Shown in pieces: positions 1 through 37,943 of a stretch of 43,237 nucleotides of DNA; the first letter of the stretch is position 1; the number at the start of each line of letters is the position of its first letter. A model generated the notes under the pieces. The model saw only the letters and a list, made by a program, of their open reading frames with translations. It was not told where the DNA came from and did no database searches. The stretch comes from a virus, in the IMG/VR virus record IMGVR_UViG_3300034106_004434, positions 1 to 43,237 of that record. One strand, given 5' to 3'. Both the position numbers and the translations under genes were made by a program.

Positions 1-18
1 ATCCAAAAGAAAGAGAAG

Positions 19-92
19 TTGGGATACCGGGGCTCGAACCCGGACTCAAGCGGTTATAAACCGCACGTTTTAACCAGTTAAACTATACCCCA
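19..92 (-). tRNA. tRNA-Ile (anticodon UAU)
   Basis: The minus strand folds into a full cloverleaf of 74 bases. The acceptor stem TGGGGTA/TATCCCA has one G-T pair, the D stem is GTTT/AAAC, the anticodon stem is TGCGG/CCGCT with a mismatch at its first pair, and the T arm is CCGGG-TTCGAGC-CCCGG. The seven-base anticodon loop TTTATAA places TAT at positions 34-36, so it reads AUA isoleucine codons. The discriminator is A and no CCA is encoded (CTT follows), so the host must add the tail. AUA is common in the AT-rich late genes of this window, which fits a phage tRNA that supplements a rare host isoacceptor. Confidence 0.93.
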
Positions 93-123
93 ATACAAGC
101 TCCTCACCCGTTAATAAAACTAC

Positions 124-654
124 TTACTGTTGCGAAGCCATCCAGGCCTCTGCATCATTCTTGTCTCGGAAGCGGGCTTGCCATACTCCGTTTAGGAATA
201 CATCATAACCCTTGCTCGTGTCAGGCCGCCACGGGCACACTTCCCATTGATCCTCCTTGACCTCTTCTACCAGATCCCAGTCCTGTTCCACCACAGAATC
301 CATTTTGCCGTTCTCGTGGTAGTAGCAAGTATAGGATTCGGCGAAGTTACCTATATCGATGATTCCTATGAATAGAAAGGCCTTGAAATGGGGGTCTTTG
401 TTCTTTTCCACCAGGACCTCGTGCTTACCGTCACGAGTCTTGTAGGTCTTACCAACTTCCAGGAAGGAGGACCAAATGCCGACCAAATCGTCATCGCTTT
501 GAACGTTTGTCAAAACTCTTCCGTCCGCATAGACATTGGTGATACATTTGTGGGTCAGAGCATCGAAATAGTTCCACAGATTATACTTGGCCGGTTTGGC
601 ATAGACTTTGATTCCGGTGCGGGTTTTGTAGAAGACGTTTTCTTTTAGTTGCAT
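124..654 (-). CDS. Hypothetical phage protein with a duplicated motif
   Basis: I do not recognise the family. The 176-residue product contains two related segments, NVFYKTRTGIKVYA near the N-terminus and GKTYKTRDGKHEVLVE about 80 residues later, which suggests an internal duplication. It is soluble-looking, rich in Asp/Glu/Lys and Trp, with no signal peptide or membrane segment. I chose the ATG at 654. The frame stays open to a TTG at 705, which would overlap the end of the next gene upstream by 8 bases and is less attractive. The gene lies directly downstream of 698-943 on the same strand and ends 32 bases before the tRNA, so these are probably co-transcribed. Confidence 0.7.
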   Translation of the reverse strand: MQLKENVFYKTRTGIKVYAKPAKYNLWNYFDALTHKCITNVYADGRVLTNVQSDDDLVGIWSSFLEVGKTYKTRDGKHEVLVEKNKDPHFKAFLFIGIIDIGNFAESYTCYYHENGKMDSVVEQDWDLVEEVKEDQWEVCPWRPDTSKGYDVFLNGVWQARFRDKNDAEAWMASQQ

Positions 655-697
655 GGTTTTAATATAATTGGGTTTTGCTGGAATTACTAGGCCATCA

Positions 698-943
698 TCA
701 GTCAATGTTCTGCGCCCATTGAACAGGACTAATATCCCCGGTCGATACGTCCCCGCCTATTTCCCCAATACTATTCCGAATAGGTTCTCCAAAACTTTCA
801 TCCGGGAAGCCAAGGAGATTAGCGGCATATGTGAGCCGACAACAATTGAATAGGGCCCCAAAAGCATCCAATTCCCTTTGAGACTGAAACTCAATATGGA
901 TACTTACAGGTTGGAATTTAACAGGTGAGGATGTAACTTTCAT
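698..943 (-). CDS. Hypothetical small phage protein
   Basis: An 81-residue protein starting MKVTSSPVKFQPVSIHIEFQ. The early part (VSIHIEFQSQRELDAFGALFN) resembles a class of short phage proteins in which a beta strand ending in EF is followed by a helix with a 'dAlfn' motif. This resemblance is from memory and no function is known. No zinc motif or membrane segment is present. The ATG at 943 has no clear Shine-Dalgarno sequence. The start MKVT is shared with the next gene upstream (976-1479), but the rest of the two proteins differs. Confidence 0.62.
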   Translation of the reverse strand: MKVTSSPVKFQPVSIHIEFQSQRELDAFGALFNCCRLTYAANLLGFPDESFGEPIRNSIGEIGGDVSTGDISPVQWAQNID

Positions 944-975
944 GCTATTATGATATAACGTTTACTAGGGAATTA

Positions 976-1479
976 CTAGATGGAAAAGGAGGGGGCTTCG
1001 ATTTCTTTTTGCACGGTGAAGGCACGCCGTTTCTTTTCTTCTTGAGCTTCCTTCTTGGGAGACTTCACGGTGATCCGGATGCTCAGGGAGTTGTAGTGCT
1101 GGGTTCCGTCCTTCCAAATCCAACCAGGCGAACAGGGACACATGGAGCAACCAGCATGGCGGCTGTGTTTGGCTTCCATCACCGAATGGGCAATCAACCC
1201 ATCCCGGACGGCCCGCTTGATGACGTCCATTTGCATGGTGACTTCTTTCCGGTTATACCGTTTCCATTCCAGATCATTGGCGGCATTCTCTCCCTTGATC
1301 CCATAAGGAGGAACCCGGGTAATGCCTGTATATGGGAGCTCTTCGGGTGACCAAGGAAGAGAGACATAAACCCGGGAACCCCTCCGTCGCCCGTCCCTTT
1401 CCTTGGAAGGACTGGTGGTAACTTCCAGGGTGCATTGCTCTTCGTAATACTGAATGGTGGCTGTTTTGGTGACTTTCAT
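976..1479 (-). CDS. Hypothetical protein with CxxCxC motif
   Basis: A 167-residue basic protein, function not recognised. It begins MKVTKTATIQYYEEQ, continues with a likely beta-rich N-terminal half, and has a Cys-rich patch CSMCPCSPGW at about residues 111-120 that could bind a metal. A charged, Lys/Glu-rich region (SPKKEAQEEKKRR) precedes the C-terminus. The gene is clearly richer in GC than the tail genes. It reads in the same direction as 124-943 with a 32-base gap. Shadow frames on both strands are open through part of it, as expected for GC-rich coding DNA, but this frame is the longest and has the most protein-like composition. Confidence 0.65.
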   Translation of the reverse strand: MKVTKTATIQYYEEQCTLEVTTSPSKERDGRRRGSRVYVSLPWSPEELPYTGITRVPPYGIKGENAANDLEWKRYNRKEVTMQMDVIKRAVRDGLIAHSVMEAKHSRHAGCSMCPCSPGWIWKDGTQHYNSLSIRITVKSPKKEAQEEKKRRAFTVQKEIEAPSFSI

Positions 1480-1581
1480 ATAAGAAGATTAGCTGGTTTT
1501 GAGGGAAATTGGAACCTTTTTCTCTATAAGGATCGCTCTCTAGAAGTCGTTGATTGGGAAGTAGTTACAAAAACCGGCCCT

Positions 1582-1734
1582 TTATTTTGAGTGTTTCATT
1601 CCTCGAGCATAGAAACCATGGACTAGCACGAAGAGAAACAGGAGGATAAAGAGCAGGAACAGGTCCTTGATAAAGAGCACTAGACCTAGTAGGAATAACA
1701 AGGACAGGAATATGCGTAAGATGAACAGAATCAT
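1582..1734 (-). CDS. Possible 50-residue membrane protein
   Basis: A short frame starting at ATG 1734 and ending in TAA encodes 50 residues that are almost entirely Leu, Phe, Ile and Val for the first 40. The only charged residues there are Arg7, Lys23 and Asp24, plus His39. This gives two potential hydrophobic helices (about residues 1-21 and 25-40) separated by a short K-D turn, with a basic tail ending in ARGMKHSK. The arrangement resembles small phage membrane proteins such as holin-like or inner-membrane peptides, but no family is recognised. No Shine-Dalgarno sequence is visible. It could be a chance product of a CT-rich strand, so the call is tentative. Confidence 0.45.
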   Translation of the reverse strand: MILFILRIFLSLLFLLGLVLFIKDLFLLFILLFLFVLVHGFYARGMKHSK

Positions 1735-2035
1735 AGGGTTAGTCAGCCATTTCGAATTTCATAGCCAACAATATAGGCGGTTTAATAGGGAAAGACTAGA
1801 AGCATTTTGAGTGGGAGGTTCCCCGCTATCCCAGCTATACTATTTAAAGAATAAGGTAAACGGCGAGCCTCGACCGCACAAACCAGGGCGAACAGGAGAT
1901 CAAACTCCGAGGATAGGGGACCGGAGGCTGCCCAGATTCTACGGTATATTTTGCCGGGAAAGGCAACACCCAAATACCCCTAACCCCCTAAGGCTCAAGT
2001 AGTTATCAAGGGGCCTTAAGGGTGAGAAGGGTGGG

Positions 2036-2068
2036 AGGAATGTGGTAGGAATGTGGTAAGAATGTGGG
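2036..2068. repeat. 11-base tandem repeat, three copies
   Basis: Two identical units AGGAATGTGGT (2036-2046, 2047-2057) are followed by a third unit with two changes, AAGAATGTGGG (2058-2068). They lie immediately before the AAGATATT-containing repeats. Confidence 0.9.
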
Positions 2069-2124
2069 AAAGTAACCAGAATAAGATATTACCACCCCCT
2101 TCTACTGCCAGAATAAGATATTTC

Positions 2125-2188
2125 TGTTCTGTAATTAAGATATTTCCCACTCTATCTGTTCTGTAATTAAGATATTTCCCACTCTATC
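2125..2188. repeat. Perfect 32-base tandem duplication
   Basis: Two identical 32-base copies (2125-2156 and 2157-2188) begin TGTTCTGTAATTAAGATATT and end CACTCTATC. A third copy starts (TGTTC) and then diverges. The AAGATATT core also occurs at 2083 and 2115, giving core-to-core spacings of 32, 22 and 32 bases. This is an iteron-like arrangement. Confidence 0.92.
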
Positions 2189-2522
2189 TGTTCCGTCCCC
2201 ATCAGGAGTCCTTTTCGGGGATTCTCCCGTTCTAACTACTCGTTTCAACTATTTCTTCTGGTAGTTGGTTTTTCCTATCCTTTCCCCTATTCCTCTGGGG
2301 TCTGGTCCTTCTCCTAATTCTAGCCGGGACCTTCCTCCTTATTTCCCCTATAATCATTCTGGACCCTTTCTCTGTCTCCTTTTAATTACTCTTTAGAACT
2401 AGTTTATACTCTTGGATATCTTGTTCTATCTAGATATAATTTTTGATTAAAAATATACTAGCAACTCTCTCTCTCTCTTATTAATCCTATATCTCTCTTT
2501 ACCTAGAACCTTGTTTAGGATC
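2189..2522. other. Long pyrimidine-rich tract
   Basis: The plus strand is dominated by C and T for over 300 bases, with runs such as TTTCCCCTATTCCTCTGG and CTCTCTCTCTCTT near 2466-2478. Both strands carry frequent stops and I see no start with a plausible product. The bias could reflect strand-specific mutation at an origin, a purine-rich minus-strand RNA, or a structure-forming tract. Confidence 0.6.
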
Positions 2523-2810
2523 TTACTTTTGTTTTGGTTTTTGTTTGGGATTTAGTTCCGGCCGTTTCTTTCCCTTTTCAATCGGCTGATCCAGACACTG
2601 CTCGAATGCCTCCCGGAACAATTTCTCCGGCCCGTACCAAGACCCCTTACTACCCACGGCCGTCACCCAGTCGCCCGCTTCTTTCAGACCCTCCTCAGGC
2701 CTTGGGCTAATATCTAACAGCCTCCATTCTCCGTCCTTGGGTCCGACTTTCCAGATCCATTCCGACCAAAGATCCAGTCTCCCTGAAAAATGACTATTGG
2801 GTTCTTTCAT
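2523..2810 (-). CDS. Hypothetical protein with basic tail
   Basis: A 95-residue protein of unknown function. It has many Trp residues in the first half (LWSEWIWKVGPKDGEWRLLDI) and a Lys/Pro-rich C-terminal tail (NPKQKPKQK). The phrase 'EWRLLDIS' resembles 'EYRWLDISH' in the small zinc-ribbon protein at 29184-29399, so a common phage fold is possible, though the match is short. The ATG at 2810 is preceded by a late-promoter-like CTAAATA with a 10-base gap, and the gene is followed by the gene-poor region. Confidence 0.62.
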   Translation of the reverse strand: MKEPNSHFSGRLDLWSEWIWKVGPKDGEWRLLDISPRPEEGLKEAGDWVTAVGSKGSWYGPEKLFREAFEQCLDQPIEKGKKRPELNPKQKPKQK

Positions 2811-2820
2811 AACATCTTTT

Positions 2821-2827
2821 TATTTAG
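2821..2827 (-). promoter_or_regulatory. Putative late promoter (CTAAATA)
   Basis: CTAAATA on the minus strand, 10 bases before the ATG of the 95-residue gene. It matches the heptamer found before virion genes here. Confidence 0.5.
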
Positions 2828-3017
2828 ACCAGGAAATTCAAAAGGAACCCAAAATATTTTAATACAAACCCAGACAGTCTTATAAAGTCGGGCGCTATTA
2901 TTCCCTAGGTCTCTATTAAAACAAAACAGAAACCGGCTTATTCAGCGGATTTTTCCTATTTCTACCGTAAAATCCACCAATCCGCTCCAAAATGGGCCAG
3001 AAAATCGCCATTTTTCT

Positions 3018-3860
3018 TTAAAAACCCGCCAGAAAATCGACCATTTTCGGAAAAAATTGCTCCTGAACCGACTGGATTCCGTTCTTTCGATACAGGCCCA
3101 GGACCCTATTTTGGTCGGAAATCTTATACCAGGTCTTAATATAATTGGTGGCCGGACCAAAGGGAATCTTCTCCAGATCCCCGGGGCGTAATGGAACCGG
3201 TTCATAAACAATCCCAGGGCGGACCGGTGCCGCGCCGTCTTTATAAAACACATAAAGATCCTTTCGGTCCAGTAATTCTTTCAGGGACTGAATGTCCGTG
3301 GTCTTTGGACCTGCCGGAGCAGGGACCGGGGCTGCAGGGGCGGGTGCAGGGGCGGGTGCAGGGGCCGGGGCGGCTTCTTTTATCAGGTCATCAAAGGAAG
3401 GGATAAAGCCAGCCGTGACTACCACCGGATTTTGGTTGACTGCTGGCTTGGCTGGGGTCTTCTGGGGGTTTAAAATGGAACGATTAGACTGCCGATTATT
3501 TTCCCGAGCCCGTGCTAATTTCGTATTAGGATCTTTGAGGCTAAGATAGAATGTTTTATTCTGGGGATTAATAGCCTTGATAGTGGCTGACCAAACCTGG
3601 CACAATTTTGGATCCTTGTCATCTATTTGCACATGGAATATTTGTTGGCCGGGTTTTAGATCATCCGTGGTTTTAATTTCCATCTGTTCCAGGTCCCTGG
3701 TCAAATGTTGAATTAAGTCTCCACCCAGTTGCCCCAAGAACCCCAAATCAATAGTGCCTGGGTCTTTGGGATTACCTAGACTCTGGACCGCTCCTTGGGC
3801 CGTCCCTGCCAGAGCATTTCCTAATACAGACCCAAACGATTCAACAATATTTTCAAACAT
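3018..3860 (-). CDS. Putative virion protein with Pro-Ala linker
   Basis: A 280-residue protein, family not recognised. The N-terminus (FGSVLGNALAGTAQGAVQSLG, split here by no charged residue) is a Gly/Ala-rich amphipathic or membrane-active stretch. A central beta-rich domain of about 100 residues follows, then a long flexible Pro-Ala linker (about residues 165-190, built from AP repeats), then a C-terminal domain containing YVFYKDGAAPVRPGIVYEP. Such N-domain/linker/C-domain architecture is common in phage structural or envelope-acting proteins. The linker is encoded by GC-rich 12-base repeats around 3335-3372. It is transcribed divergently from the 3905 gene over a 44-base gap that has late-promoter-like motifs on both strands, supporting late expression. 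Confidence 0.68.
   Translation of the reverse strand: MFENIVESFGSVLGNALAGTAQGAVQSLGNPKDPGTIDLGFLGQLGGDLIQHLTRDLEQMEIKTTDDLKPGQQIFHVQIDDKDPKLCQVWSATIKAINPQNKTFYLSLKDPNTKLARARENNRQSNRSILNPQKTPAKPAVNQNPVVVTAGFIPSFDDLIKEAAPAPAPAPAPAPAAPVPAPAGPKTTDIQSLKELLDRKDLYVFYKDGAAPVRPGIVYEPVPLRPGDLEKIPFGPATNYIKTWYKISDQNRVLGLYRKNGIQSVQEQFFPKMVDFLAGF
3335..3372. repeat. 12-base G-rich coding minisatellite
   Basis: Repeats of GGGGCGGGTGCA and close variants. On the coding strand they specify the Pro-Ala linker of the 280-residue protein. Slippage here would change linker length in steps of four residues. Confidence 0.8.
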
Positions 3861-3870
3861 AAGATCTAGA

Positions 3871-3877
3871 TACTTAT
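3871..3877 (-). promoter_or_regulatory. Putative late promoter (ATAAGTA)
   Basis: The octamer TATAAGTA on the minus strand differs from the T4 late consensus TATAAATA at one position and lies 10 bases before ATG 3860. On the opposite strand ATAAGTT (3890-3896) precedes ATG 3905 by 8 bases, a weaker match. Confidence 0.5.
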
Positions 3878-3904
3878 AGCATCTTGTCCATAAGTTATAA
3901 TAAC

Positions 3905-4879
3905 ATGGATGTTTTAACCCAATTTTTAGGCTTGTCTGGCATTTGGCAAACCGGCAGCTTTCCGCTCCTACCTTTAAAATTGCCTATCTCGGTTCTAGGA
4001 AGTTTAGATCAGACAGCCCCCATATCCCTATTAAATGCCGTTCAAACCAGGACGCCTGAATTGATAGATATCCAGCCGTTTATATCCCAGTCCCTTTCGT
4101 GTGGTTCTACGGTCTCCTCTTTACACCTGTCTTCAGTGGAATTACAGCAGATTAATCTAGGTTCTAATACGGGTTATGTTTCTATTGTCTATCAGACCAC
4201 AGGTAATCGACCTTTTCGTCTGTCCGTGGACTGGAACGGCTCCACAGTAATAGACACCCTCTGGAGAGGGCCTGTGAGTGCTAATAGTTTGTTATTGTCC
4301 TTGTGCAGTGCCTCTATCACCGGGCCTAGTTCAGGAATTATTAGCTTTTATAAGAACTATTCAGCCCCGTCTGCCACCGTTACTGTTTATGATCCGTTTG
4401 ATAATTTTGCCTGGAGCTATTATATAAACTGCCCGCAAGCTACACCCTTGCAACAGAATATACCCGGAACAGCATGGATGACGCCACCCATGATAATTAC
4501 CTATACCTGGGACGGACCTGCGGGCCCATATGATATATTCACTGGCACCACATTTTTGAGCAGCACCCTGGGTTGGTGGTCTAGTGGCTTTACTGCTCCA
4601 TATATGGTTTGGACCGACGTCTCCTCTTTGCTCTATGAAACCTTCTCCGTGCGGGTAGATGATGCCCATACTGATTCCATGTGGACGTTGTCCACAACGA
4701 TAAATCTGGTGGCTGATTGGTATATAAATACAGGAACAGGTGGTGCCGTAACTGTCACCTATAATGGAGACACTCAATCAAAGGACATCTATCCGGGCAC
4801 CGTTGGTAGTGCTATTCCGCCCACTACCCCTGTTGGTTCTATCACGGTGAATGACGATGGGACATTCGTCCTCAACTAA
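3905..4879 (+). CDS. Beta-rich putative virion/tail protein
   Basis: A 324-residue protein rich in Ser, Thr, Tyr, Trp and Gly, with few charged residues. This is the composition of phage fibre or baseplate beta-structures. The last 70 residues (GTGGAVTVTYNGDTQSKDI... to GSITVNDDGTFVLN) look like a small immunoglobulin-like or beta-sandwich domain. No known family is recognised. The ATG at 3905 is chosen; a TTG at 3884 is in frame but would invade the divergent promoter region. It is followed after 34 bases by the large vWA protein on the same strand, so it probably belongs to the same late tail unit. Confidence 0.72.
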   Translation: MDVLTQFLGLSGIWQTGSFPLLPLKLPISVLGSLDQTAPISLLNAVQTRTPELIDIQPFISQSLSCGSTVSSLHLSSVELQQINLGSNTGYVSIVYQTTGNRPFRLSVDWNGSTVIDTLWRGPVSANSLLLSLCSASITGPSSGIISFYKNYSAPSATVTVYDPFDNFAWSYYINCPQATPLQQNIPGTAWMTPPMIITYTWDGPAGPYDIFTGTTFLSSTLGWWSSGFTAPYMVWTDVSSLLYETFSVRVDDAHTDSMWTLSTTINLVADWYINTGTGGAVTVTYNGDTQSKDIYPGTVGSAIPPTTPVGSITVNDDGTFVLN

Positions 4880-4900
4880 CCAGATCCTTGGGTTTGATTC

Positions 4901-4907
4901 ATAAATA
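4901..4907 (+). promoter_or_regulatory. Putative late promoter (ATAAATA)
   Basis: The octamer CATAAATA ends 6 bases before ATG 4914. It matches seven of eight bases of the T4 late promoter TATAAATA, and no Shine-Dalgarno sequence lies between it and the start. Confidence 0.62.
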
Positions 4908-4913
4908 TACCAA

Positions 4914-7900
4914 ATGGCCTTTGATCTTAAAACTCCCGCTCCTTTAGCTCTAACTGAATGGACCAAAAGATACCCTTTATTTTCTACTCAAGACACTAAA
5001 GCGGGTTATATGGCCTATTTGCGGGCCTGGTATAAGCAACAACCAACCAGTGAACAAGATAAGATTGATGAATTTCAATTGAAATATGTTCAATTATTAC
5101 AAGAATTGTCTTATTTGTTCAGTCCAGAAGAATCTAATCTGTTTCTTTCTGATATAGACTGGACTAATGAAGAAGATATTGTATTGGTTATTCCTATTTT
5201 CGCCCGGAAGTTAAAGGAGATTTCTCAGGTGTTGGTTAATAAAAGAGAAAGTATCAAACAGGCTAAGCAGAAATACAGCATTGCCGGAACCAATGATGGA
5301 GTCGAAACTCTTTTATATCAATATATCTTAAATGGATTCACCCAAAGGAATCAAATAACCCAGATTCCATATTCCCCGTTGCGAGGTCAATTGCCAGCCC
5401 TTTCTTCTATTGGTGGAGATTTTCGAGTCGAAATAGAAGAACTCTATGATACCCAGACCTATTTTGATTCTGATCCAGCATTACCTGTTTCTGCTTATGA
5501 TCTAGTAACTTCAGCCGCCGTTCCATTTGATAATATGGGCGTAGAGCAATTAAACCAATTGCTGACCAACAGATTCTTGGCCAAAGTTTCTGATAACACC
5601 GTCGCTGCTGTATTTCGTTCTTTATATCCAGGGATTTCTGCTGATACCTTTGATGTCCAAGCTGCTTCGTTGACAGAACAGTCCCAAGCATCCAAACAGT
5701 ATATGGGCGCTGTGGTTTATAGTGTTTCGGGTGGGTATATTGACAATGCACCGGACCTGCAGTCTTCTCTTGATTTTGTTAGCGGAAATAATTGGTTTCT
5801 ATGGCCTAATGGTTCTAAGGACTTGAATCCCTCCAAATTCATTAACACCTATAAACCAGTTCCTCTTAGTTCTTCTAATTTGTTAGCTTCTGGAGCTGCG
5901 GGTGGAAATAATATTAACAATTCAGATTTATTGTTTGTAGAGTCAGCAGGAAAAGTATCTGGGGCTTGGTTGAGTTTATTTTTTGATAAGGTGTCTGCAG
6001 CAAAAATGTCAGCTCATATTAAAGGAGAGACCACCAGAGACTTTCGATATCCGTATCCCGGATTTAATTTGACTCAAATTGGTTTAAATTGGAATGGATT
6101 TAACTTATCAGATAATAATCTGCCAATATTCAACCTACTGTCTAATGAAGTGCAAGCTAGTATATTGCGCGAGTATTGGACTAAGACTCTGCCTTTGAGT
6201 GCCGCCACTGATTTAGACATAAACAAATCAGATTTAGTATCCTGTGGAGCCTTTGCTGGTCCTAATTCTCTCTCGGCCGACGTTATATCTTTACGTAGTT
6301 CGATGAACGCCTTGGATTCGGTCTATACGGATCAACTTACTGGAACATCACAGGCCTTTCTTTACAAATTCCAATATACTGATATACCTCTGTCTATTGG
6401 AGCCTCTAATATATTGTGGCCTATTGGAAATAATTCCTCTAAAGTCCAACCTACTTCTTCTTGGTGTAATAATATACCACTGCAGACCTTGTGGGTGCCT
6501 ACTAATATGACTGGGGCTGTTGCCGGTCTAACTTTAGGGTCCTCTGATCAAATTTATAAATTAAATGCCAGTGATTTAACGCCTGTGGAAGGTGCTTGGT
6601 TGAAGGGTGCAAGTATTAATAGTTTATACGAAGATCCAAAGACGGCCATTGCTGTTTATAATAGGGATGCCACGTTTTGTGCTCAGTATATTGACGGACC
6701 CATTCAACCGTCTTTGGCCCTATTGGTAGAACCTGGTGACATTCAATCCTTTATTTGGATGGATCAAGACACGCCCGCCGATCAGGTTTTTGCCTTTGTG
6801 CCCCATAAAACAGATTGCAATTACCTTATATCCAAAAAGGAATGCAATTGTAAATCAATACAATACTCTCCTATAGGCCACCAAGGAGATAAACTAACCG
6901 ACCACGGCAGTGTTACTGATATATTATTTGCAGACCCTCAAGGACTGGGTTCTAATTTTGCCATCAACACCTATACAGACACCAGAGGATTTAATGCCCT
7001 ACAAAGTCCTCAGTTCTCATTCTTTAGTTTAACTTCAGCTGCAGATGATGCTGTTGGTTGGGGTCCTGGTAACTGGAAATCTAATAATGGGGATACTATG
7101 ATTCTCAAAACGGGAAGTAGATATACCTATATACGCACTCCTTTCCCAGCTAATATTAATAAACTACCTACTTATTTTATTTGTTTATATCCGTATAAAA
7201 ATATATCCAGCCAATACAAATACGAAGAAACGGACGTTGTGTTCTTATTAGATTATAGTGGCTCTGAGTCTGCTAATATTAATATTATCAACACAGTGGC
7301 TTCGCAGATTATTAAAACGCTGTTACCAGACAATCAAACCAGTGTTCAAGTAGCTGCGTATGTTTTTGATGAAAGTGCTCGTTCTGTTTTTGGATTTATA
7401 CAGCAACCAGACATCGTAGACTATGCTTTGCAAAGCACCACATTTAATTCTCAGGCATCCACAAATTATATAGCGCCATTAAGTGCTGCTATAGGATTAT
7501 TAACTACCAACTTAAATCCTAGTTCTTACAACCTATGCAATAACATAGAGAACAATATTCTTAATGCTTCTGGGCAAGGTGGTGGACACGGGCGAGAATC
7601 TGCATTAAAGAAAATTATTATTATCGGAGACGGCCATGACACGGTTAATAACATAGATATAGTAGAATATTGGGACTCCGTTTTGCGGGCCGAGCAATAT
7701 CCAATTCAAGTTTTTTCTATATCCTTAGGAGCAGAATCTGCAGACAATACCGTAATGCAAAATATTGCCAGACCACTAACCAATCATGTGGATCTGCAGT
7801 CTGTTATTATTAACCAAGAAGTTAATCTATCTACTTTTGCGAAGCAAATAGCCCAACAGGTTGGCAACCAACCTGTTATATTTCCTTCCTGGCAAAAGTC

Positions 7901-9194
7901 TATTAATAAAAACGGAACATGGGTAGACGCTGGCGAACCATCCGATTTAATTTTATCTCCTGGGGACAATATACAATATATTCATACTACAGGCCCTAGC
8001 TATTCAGCTCAGGCCATCAATGGAGATTCAGCAATATTCAAGCAGAATGCCACCAGTTTTAAAATTAAGACCAAGTTGAACGGCTGGGATTATAAAACAT
8101 CTAACTATTCAAGTAATAATGTGGGCTTGGTATATGGATCCCAACCATTTTGGGGTAAAGTTTATAATCAACCAGATGTGGCCAATAATTTCAACAAAGA
8201 AACTGCTTATCTAGGCGGACATGTTCGATACTATAATGATTACATTCCAATCATTCAACCAGAAATTTCTGATCTGGTGTTGTCTAATAATAGTTGGATA
8301 CAATATAATCGCAAAGATGTATACCCATTGAATTGGATTCAGCCCGTAACTTTAAATATCAGTGAAGCTGGGTTGGGTTGGCTGAAATTAAAACTGACCA
8401 CAGAAGTTACTAATCTGTCTGCTCTGTTTCTAAATCAGCCAATGGATAAAGTGGTAATTCTAACCACAGAACCAAGCGATATCTTATTGGAGAGTTATAC
8501 TGATTATAATCTCAACCAATATAACTATTGGGCTCAACAACCCTTTACCTATAAGGAATCCCTATACAGTAATCCAGCGTGCCCTTCGTTATTCCCTGTG
8601 GTTACGTCGGTGTTTATCAGTCCTGCTATGCCATGGGCTAATATGGATAACGTTCACTTTCCAACCATAGCAGCTGTTTCTGTGCCACAAAATCTAAAAT
8701 CCAAAAGGGAATTAGGTTATTTGGTTCCTTCTAATCTAGGCACGTCGTCTTATCTCGGGAAGGGATATACCATGTCTCTGAATGTTGATGCTTTGTCTGG
8801 TCAGACTACTGAATCTTTGTTTTGGGATTTAAATGTTTATGGTGGACGTAATAGAGGCCTAAGCAAACAAGATCAACTAGCTCCTGTATCCATAACCAAT
8901 ATCGACAATTCTTGGTTGTCTGCTCCTTCCACTACGGGATTGTTATCTGGGACTATCATTAATGCTCGTCATTACCAAAAGATGGTCCCATACCAATCGG
9001 ACGTAGAAACTAATGGATATTCTTCCTATGGACTCAGTCGTCCTGAGGATTATAATATATTTTGGACAACTGCCCTATCCTCTACGAAAACAGACTTTAA
9101 TCAAGCCATTCTCCCATTGTTATCTGATGTTGGCACCATTACTGACTGGGCTACAGATCTTTATGGGAATGAATACGGTGTCTTTAAAAGTTAA
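4914..9194 (+). CDS. Giant tail/baseplate protein with von Willebrand A domain
   Basis: 1426 residues. The N-terminal ~250 residues are helical, and a stretch KLKEISQVLVNKRESIKQA followed by a Gly-containing turn and 'GVETLLYQYILNGF' resembles the N-terminal module of T4-like baseplate-associated virion proteins; this is an impression only. The middle is beta-rich. A von Willebrand factor A domain lies at about residues 775-980: VVFLLDYSGSES supplies the DxSxS metal-site motif, TNYIAP a candidate Thr, and IIIGDGHD the later Asp. An intact MIDAS of this kind typically binds a divalent cation and a protein ligand, so a role in adhesion or in regulated baseplate assembly is plausible (inference). 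A Cys cluster (KKECNCKS) occurs upstream of it. The ATG follows a late-promoter motif by 6 bases. The stop shares TTAA with the convergent gene. Confidence 0.85.
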   Translation: MAFDLKTPAPLALTEWTKRYPLFSTQDTKAGYMAYLRAWYKQQPTSEQDKIDEFQLKYVQLLQELSYLFSPEESNLFLSDIDWTNEEDIVLVIPIFARKLKEISQVLVNKRESIKQAKQKYSIAGTNDGVETLLYQYILNGFTQRNQITQIPYSPLRGQLPALSSIGGDFRVEIEELYDTQTYFDSDPALPVSAYDLVTSAAVPFDNMGVEQLNQLLTNRFLAKVSDNTVAAVFRSLYPGISADTFDVQAASLTEQSQASKQYMGAVVYSVSGGYIDNAPDLQSSLDFVSGNNWFLWPNGSKDLNPSKFINTYKPVPLSSSNLLASGAAGGNNINNSDLLFVESAGKVSGAWLSLFFDKVSAAKMSAHIKGETTRDFRYPYPGFNLTQIGLNWNGFNLSDNNLPIFNLLSNEVQASILREYWTKTLPLSAATDLDINKSDLVSCGAFAGPNSLSADVISLRSSMNALDSVYTDQLTGTSQAFLYKFQYTDIPLSIGASNILWPIGNNSSKVQPTSSWCNNIPLQTLWVPTNMTGAVAGLTLGSSDQIYKLNASDLTPVEGAWLKGASINSLYEDPKTAIAVYNRDATFCAQYIDGPIQPSLALLVEPGDIQSFIWMDQDTPADQVFAFVPHKTDCNYLISKKECNCKSIQYSPIGHQGDKLTDHGSVTDILFADPQGLGSNFAINTYTDTRGFNALQSPQFSFFSLTSAADDAVGWGPGNWKSNNGDTMILKTGSRYTYIRTPFPANINKLPTYFICLYPYKNISSQYKYEETDVVFLLDYSGSESANINIINTVASQIIKTLLPDNQTSVQVAAYVFDESARSVFGFIQQPDIVDYALQSTTFNSQASTNYIAPLSAAIGLLTTNLNPSSYNLCNNIENNILNASGQGGGHGRESALKKIIIIGDGHDTVNNIDIVEYWDSVLRAEQYPIQVFSISLGAESADNTVMQNIARPLTNHVDLQSVIINQEVNLSTFAKQIAQQVGNQPVIFPSWQKSINKNGTWVDAGEPSDLILSPGDNIQYIHTTGPSYSAQAINGDSAIFKQNATSFKIKTKLNGWDYKTSNYSSNNVGLVYGSQPFWGKVYNQPDVANNFNKETAYLGGHVRYYNDYIPIIQPEISDLVLSNNSWIQYNRKDVYPLNWIQPVTLNISEAGLGWLKLKLTTEVTNLSALFLNQPMDKVVILTTEPSDILLESYTDYNLNQYNYWAQQPFTYKESLYSNPACPSLFPVVTSVFISPAMPWANMDNVHFPTIAAVSVPQNLKSKRELGYLVPSNLGTSSYLGKGYTMSLNVDALSGQTTESLFWDLNVYGGRNRGLSKQDQLAPVSITNIDNSWLSAPSTTGLLSGTIINARHYQKMVPYQSDVETNGYSSYGLSRPEDYNIFWTTALSSTKTDFNQAILPLLSDVGTITDWATDLYGNEYGVFKS

Positions 9195-37722: not shown

Positions 37723-37754
37723 GGTTTAAGAATAGCTGATTTTAATGGGAATTG

Positions 37755-37943
37755 CTAGATTTTATCGAAAATTCGTTGAGATGCTTGTTTAGTATATCCC
37801 ACGATTTCTAATGGAGAAACGGAAATCAGGTCAGAAGAAAGACCGGCAAACCGGCGCCAGTGAATAGGGCGTTTAGAAATCGAAAATACTACCAGGGCAT
37901 AAACCCAAAAAGGTTTCCACCACACCCAGGTGCCGTTTTCCAT
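37755..37943 (-). CDS. Hypothetical small protein, possibly membrane-associated
   Basis: 62 residues with a hydrophobic Trp/Phe-rich start (MENGTWVWWKPFWVYALVVFSIS), which could be a membrane helix, and a soluble basic rest (KRPIHWRRFAGL). No known family. It lies between head genes and early genes, 112 bases after the 51-residue gene and 32 before the next; promoter and terminator assignment are unclear. Confidence 0.55.
   Translation of the reverse strand: MENGTWVWWKPFWVYALVVFSISKRPIHWRRFAGLSSDLISVSPLEIVGYTKQASQRIFDKI

Follow-up and report, generated by a model that had tools for sequence, protein, structure and literature searches.

A candidate structured small RNA with its own predicted early-type promoter in the largest intergenic gap of a T4-like phage record

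What occupies a gap of 788 nt in a phage record whose next largest space between genes is 207 nt? The window studied here, an IMG/VR virus record analysed over its whole length of 43,237 bases, carries this gap at positions 1735-2522. A first-pass annotation made from the sequence alone described it as a repeat-rich, pyrimidine-biased island in a compact phage genome and proposed that it is a replication origin or the source of a long purine-rich RNA from the minus strand. We find in it divergent predicted promoters, a candidate small RNA, a repeat array and a pyrimidine-rich tract, with no coding frame, and on balance we favor a reading in which the island serves as an early-type promoter region and carries a gene for a small RNA, one that would yield a short plus-strand transcript. 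The conserved part of the island, at about 1838-1950, lies upstream of the repeats and was absent from the earlier description. A candidate small RNA kept across phages that are about 34% identical in their capsid protein offers a defined core, promoter and structure for testing, and illustrates that gaps left blank by protein-based annotation can hold conserved RNAs.

Results

The record is classed as linear, which often denotes a fragment. It encodes the T4-like proteins gp21 (protease), a gp22-like scaffold, gp23 (capsid) and the baseplate proteins gp25 and gp6, together with a clamp loader, a thymidylate synthase and a dUTPase, and these genes mark it as a piece of a larger T4-like phage. 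With the best-listed named phages its gp23 shares about 33-35% identity and with many IMG/VR contigs about 70%, the longest two of these contigs measuring about 211 kb; the description of a compact genome was mistaken. The G+C content of bases 1-4400 exceeds that of most of the remaining record, and a tRNA and small genes are found there; three long relatives (G005, G009 and G006) likewise have a zone of raised G+C content in which tRNAs and small ORFs lie. A codon model had suggested a large non-coding zone in the relatives, an idea that we abandoned, since for the most part ORFs cover that zone well beyond the level of shuffled sequences. None of the proteins encoded next to the island has a homolog in ten relatives. 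Further along the window, positions 4914-9194 (+) encode a 1426-aa protein that is conserved in the clade (33-39% identity) and matches a von Willebrand A domain, with no PHROG match and no homolog among named phages.

That some 790 bases lack a convincing gene was borne out: start-to-stop ORFs in 1735-2522 are all at most 63 aa, each of the six frames contains several stops in 2090-2522, and a coding reading was ruled out under the standard code and with TAG read as Q, neither of which opened anything convincing. The gap is bordered on its left by a small hydrophobic 50-aa gene at 1582-1734 (-), the divergent neighbor of the candidate RNA.

The candidate RNA (1848-1950, +) emerged from comparison with relatives. 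A blastn search of window bases 1-5000 against ten of them gave one strong match, from 1865-1939 to G009 184736-184811 (76 bp, 85.5% identity, E 2.6e-16), which sits in an ORF-free gap about 400 bases from tRNA-Asn and tRNA-Lys, and a third copy lies in G006. When a pattern with the P1 stem described below left free was run on 2.9 million IMG/VR contigs, it had four matches, namely G009, G006 and the new G015 (279 kb) and G016 (80 kb), all copies found in this way being selected for the pattern's fixed letters. Both new records are T4-like by gp23, segments of which are 28-40% (about 34%) identical to that of the window. A covariance model, R1, built from the five sequences (window, G009, G006, G015 and G016) scores these training copies at 76-83 bits, the window copy among them at 75.8 bits, and picks out a second copy in G015 and in G016 at 33 and 30 bits. 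The homolog set thus comprises five records and seven copies, the window's and six further. The second G015 copy (C1:262058-262142; L204 1501-1585) has a longer, differently built P1 and the same core.

Beyond this set, most other relatives searched with R1, including G005 (211 kb), gave no convincing match, the weak ones (E 0.001-1.5) being chance-like. Named phages, searched by blastn with the copies of the window, G015 and G016, and plasmids, searched with the window copy, returned only chance matches of about 18-40 nt, and a literature search by core sequence found nothing relevant. Apart from tRNAs, the Rfam 15 covariance models gave nothing above threshold; the island reached no gathering score and at E<=10 had chance matches alone, and the element matches no Rfam family. 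Pattern matches in genome contigs (L188-L192) were rejected as homologs, having no matching stem or flanks.

Covariation in the alignment supports a hairpin, P1, at 1895-1908 (+; GGAG-AUCAAA-CUCC, with loop A-UNRA-A). All four pairs form in all five sequences, three of the four with a compensatory (double) change, and with seven sequences 95.8% of cells pair; the stems GGAG/CUCC, GGGG/CCCC (twice), GUCG/CGAC and GGGU/GCCC enclose A-UNRA-A, and the pair types are GC, UA, AU, CG and UG. The covariation score was reached by 0-2 of 500 shuffles, and slid controls fail. Adjoining P1 at 1909-1940 (+) is a purine-rich segment, GAGGAUAGGGGACCGGAGGCUG, conserved in sequence in five records, together with a weaker stem, P2, in which AGGAU (1910-1914) would pair with AUUCU (1936-1940). 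In the fixed alignment 89-90% of P2 cells pair, with one-sided changes only; by eye, the register varies (GAGGAUA/UAUCUUU in G015, GAGAAU/AUUCUU in its second copy, AAAG-GAUA/UAUC-a-CUUU in the second G016 copy), and the stem is poor in the G006 copy. Single-sequence folding energies are ordinary, no better than those of shuffles. A 5' extension (AGCCUCGACCG...CAGGGCG; 1866-1889, +), common to the window, G009 and G006 only, is complementary to CGAGG and, in the window and G009, to the downstream GAGGCU. Through this complementarity to the conserved segment it may compete with P2 or form a pseudoknot. One of the G015/G016 copies has UUUUU after the second stem and the next promoter a few bases beyond.

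Promoter weight matrices (PWMs) were learned in relatives: the G006 zone supplied 46 sites, against 0-3 in shuffles, and the G009 zone 30, against 4-7; a third model, for the G005 zone, failed to converge on the motif of the other two. High matches in the window's left zone lie at 657-692(-), 946-981(-), 1482-1517(-), 1766-1801(-), 1810-1845(+) and 2323-2358(+). Every minus-strand match there is directly upstream of a minus-strand gene (657-692 only with an inner-ATG start), and a few more matches occur elsewhere in the record, the best at 37725-37760(-). The match at 1766-1801(-) is the predicted early-type promoter of gene 1582-1734 (scores 11.4/17.7 with the G006/G009 models), and the one at 1810-1845(+) that of the RNA (14.0/15.6), with a -10 box, TATACT, at 1836-1841 from which the RNA would start at about 1848. 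The second predicted plus-strand promoter in the gap, at 2323-2358 (GGGACC, -10 TATAAT; 18.1/21.3), is the top promoter match of the whole record and was reached by none of 300 shuffles of the surrounding tract; it has no downstream plus-strand gene and is antisense to gene 2523-2810.

Predicted promoters of this RNA's type occupy the corresponding position in G009 (184682+) and G006 (87398-). The two G015 copies and the first G016 copy follow a TTGACA-N16-TATNNT promoter whose predicted start coincides with the element's first bases. A sigma70-like promoter is thus predicted from sequence directly upstream and in the same orientation in six of the six places examined (window, G009 and G006 by PWM; G015 twice; the first G016 copy). 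The window, G009 and G006 have at this place a promoter of the phage's own kind, with the neighboring gene running in the opposite direction. Comparison among the copies establishes the element, its orientation relative to a predicted promoter and the pairing of P1.

The repeats downstream of the RNA are as the first-pass annotation reported. They comprise an 11-bp unit present 3.4 times (GTGGTAGGAAT; 2031-2067, +), a perfect 32-base tandem duplication at 2123-2154/2155-2186 (at spacing 32, identity extends over 39 bp; TRF score 142, the record's highest) and, on the plus strand, four AAGATATT cores at 2083, 2115, 2137 and 2169, spaced 32/22/32 in an iteron-like array (2083-2200). On that strand TAAGATATT occurs only at the four cores, and it occurs once on the minus strand elsewhere in the record. 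The array units are AAGATATT plus 24, 14 and 24 bases, the 22-bp spacing being the 32-bp unit minus 10 bp, so that the cores remain near whole helical turns; this phasing, with its two independent spacings, weakly suggests protein sites on one face of the DNA. The expectation that the repeats would be conserved and their flanks would not fails for the repeats, since the array was found in no relative: a three-core pattern search of IMG/VR matched only coding repeats and unrelated arrays, the one locus inspected among 18-mer matches holds no array, and the array is known from this contig alone. In G009 and G006 repeats lie downstream of the RNA and are unrelated to those of the window, and G015 and G016 have no such array beside their copies. 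The G006 repeats include two triple direct-repeat arrays with a spacing of about 21-23 bp (86387-86454 and 85916-85978; L162 6387-6454 and 5916-5978), 0.9-1.4 kb downstream of the RNA copy and unlike the window array in sequence; near G009 185004-185053 (L138 5004-5053) the palindrome AATACCTAGGTATT occurs twice at spacing 35, also downstream of the RNA copy. In the window itself, another 32-bp tandem repeat, an imperfect one (GCCAGAAAATCGCCATTTTT...), occupies 2996-3056, where the next gap and gene end.

More than 300 bases of CT-rich plus strand had also been reported, and the tract is present at 2150-2560 (0.6-0.76 CT per 50 nt). Pyrimidines reach 0.71 over 300 nt, the record's maximum, versus maxima of 0.60-0.63 in ten dinucleotide shuffles of the record; the best 300-nt windows begin at 2095-2145, and the tract runs on into the flanking gene 2523-2810(-). 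A long purine-rich RNA from the minus strand found no support: no minus-strand promoter scores in the tract, whereas on the plus strand the tract holds a predicted promoter of the phage's own kind, with another upstream. The repeats and the tract are probably a fast-evolving, lineage-specific regulatory or replication site outside the conserved RNA.

Discussion

These comparisons make it likely that the window element is a structured small RNA. We envision a scenario in which host RNA polymerase starts at the promoter at 1810-1845, back to back with that of gene 1582-1734, and produces a short plus-strand RNA from near 1848, with homology ending near 1950. This RNA would fold into hairpin P1, with its UNRA-type loop, and then into a weaker stem closing over a conserved purine-rich loop (AGGGGACCGGAGGCUG), and the conserved single-stranded segments would bind a host component or a target RNA early in infection. 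We infer that the element is transcribed, mostly as an RNA standing alone; that it acts in trans is our best guess, tentatively held. A same-strand gene closely downstream is lacking in the window (for about 2 kb) and in G009, and in G015 the next promoter lies within about 100 nt after the RNA and serves the next gene, arrangements that fit a stand-alone RNA. An HNH endonuclease-like gene about 65 nt downstream in G006 (by eye) and a gene about 200 nt downstream in G016 make a leader role possible there. HNH endonuclease genes adjoin two RNA copies (L186 9667-10098(-), and downstream of the G006 copy), which could reflect chance or homing.

Could the island instead be an origin resembling T4 oriE? 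The transcript from 1810-1845 (or 2323) would then form an R-loop or primer and the AAGATATT iterons would bind an initiator. In T4, oriE combines 12-nt direct repeats at even spacing with dependence on an early promoter, and a transcription switch is located nearby, together with a shift in composition (PMC3016281). The window likewise has evenly spaced direct repeats (2083-2200) and a nearby predicted early promoter, 1810-1845(+), along with a strand switch, a skewed tract and spacings (32/22/32) close to whole turns of the helix, and the presence of repeats downstream of the RNA in G009 and G006 is also in keeping with this idea. However, T4 oriE is antisense inside gene 5 and comes with repEA/repEB, whereas the window site is an intergenic gap with unrelated repeats and no RepEA/RepEB homolog (tblastn E>=2.9, a weak test with such tiny proteins and a record that is a fragment), and in T4 itself the iterons have no established association with oriE activity (PMC3016281). 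The likeness to oriE in iteron-like repeats, early-type promoter and diverging transcription stands, but the origin proposed in the first-pass annotation is a possibility here and not a finding, because the array is unconserved, the cumulative GC skew of the record turns near 9-9.5 kb and 28 kb rather than at the island, RepEA/RepEB homologs are missing and the relatives' repeats are unrelated or, beside the RNA in G015 and G016, lacking. We regard such an origin as unlikely. A wider speculation, in which a small RNA occurring here and there among T4-like phages would act early in infection by mimicking or capturing a conserved host RNA partner (ribosomal, RNA polymerase or an RNA-binding protein) and its gene may also prime an oriE-like origin in the window's lineage, seems distinctly unlikely.

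The element might also act in cis as a put-like antiterminator, the nascent RNA binding RNA polymerase, as put does at the beta' zinc-binding domain, and allowing it to read through downstream terminators. HK022 put packs a pair of adjacent stem-loops into about 70 nt near the start site of an early promoter (PMC9378689), and the element, lying at the beginning of predicted early-type transcripts or close to it, would likewise form two adjacent stem-loops in less than 80 nt, with sequence-conserved loops and with genes downstream in G006 and G016. This likeness is one of stem-loop layout, with P2 weak and the start predicted, and most copies have no downstream operon: there is no same-strand gene for about 2 kb in the window and none close in G009, and the next gene in G015 has a promoter of its own. 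We consider this quite improbable. Very improbable, in our estimate, is a plain regulatory spacer or decaying DNA consisting of an operator array and promoters with no functional RNA. The repeats are private to the contig, the flanking zone is variable and the flanking proteins lack homologs in the ten relatives, but the element has been kept, with compensatory changes, across phages about 34% identical in their capsid protein.

Extremely improbable is a mimic of part of a host RNA, 5S rRNA or the 23S sarcin-ricin loop, that titrates its partner. The core resembles 5S rRNA 98-119 (GAGAGUAGGGAACUGCCAGGCA), the best PWM match in the E. coli rrnB rRNAs, with a score reached by 15 of 3000 random sequences (16 of 2000 shuffles for the G006 copy, 41 of 2000 for the G009 copy), and by eye GGACCGGAG is common to the element and the sarcin-ricin loop. 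However, the resemblance is not significant for most other copies, nor when all rRNAs are taken into account; the covariance model does not pick out 5S and there is no RF00001 match; the likeness is partial only; and two 5S loci of other bacteria, one or both possibly read on the wrong strand, show no resemblance. We set both forms of mimicry aside as weak. A CsrA sponge acting through GGA motifs was also considered.

Returning to a small RNA of its own kind, the element may be set beside known phage RNAs. GOLLD and ROOL are associated with tRNA genes and, like the window element, are non-coding; they are large, ornate RNAs, whereas the element is about 100 nt or less. Homology to an RNA of T4 was rejected after R1 found no match at E<=5 on the whole T4 genome, in a set with no positive control. 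T4 rnaC and rnaD (species 1 and 2) are small stable phage RNAs whose functions are still unknown and which are classed as late RNAs (PMC9697503); they lie directly beside the tRNA cluster (NC_000866 70908-71171). The window element is similarly a candidate small RNA in the tRNA and small-gene zone of a T4-like phage but, unlike these late RNAs, has its own predicted early-type promoter.
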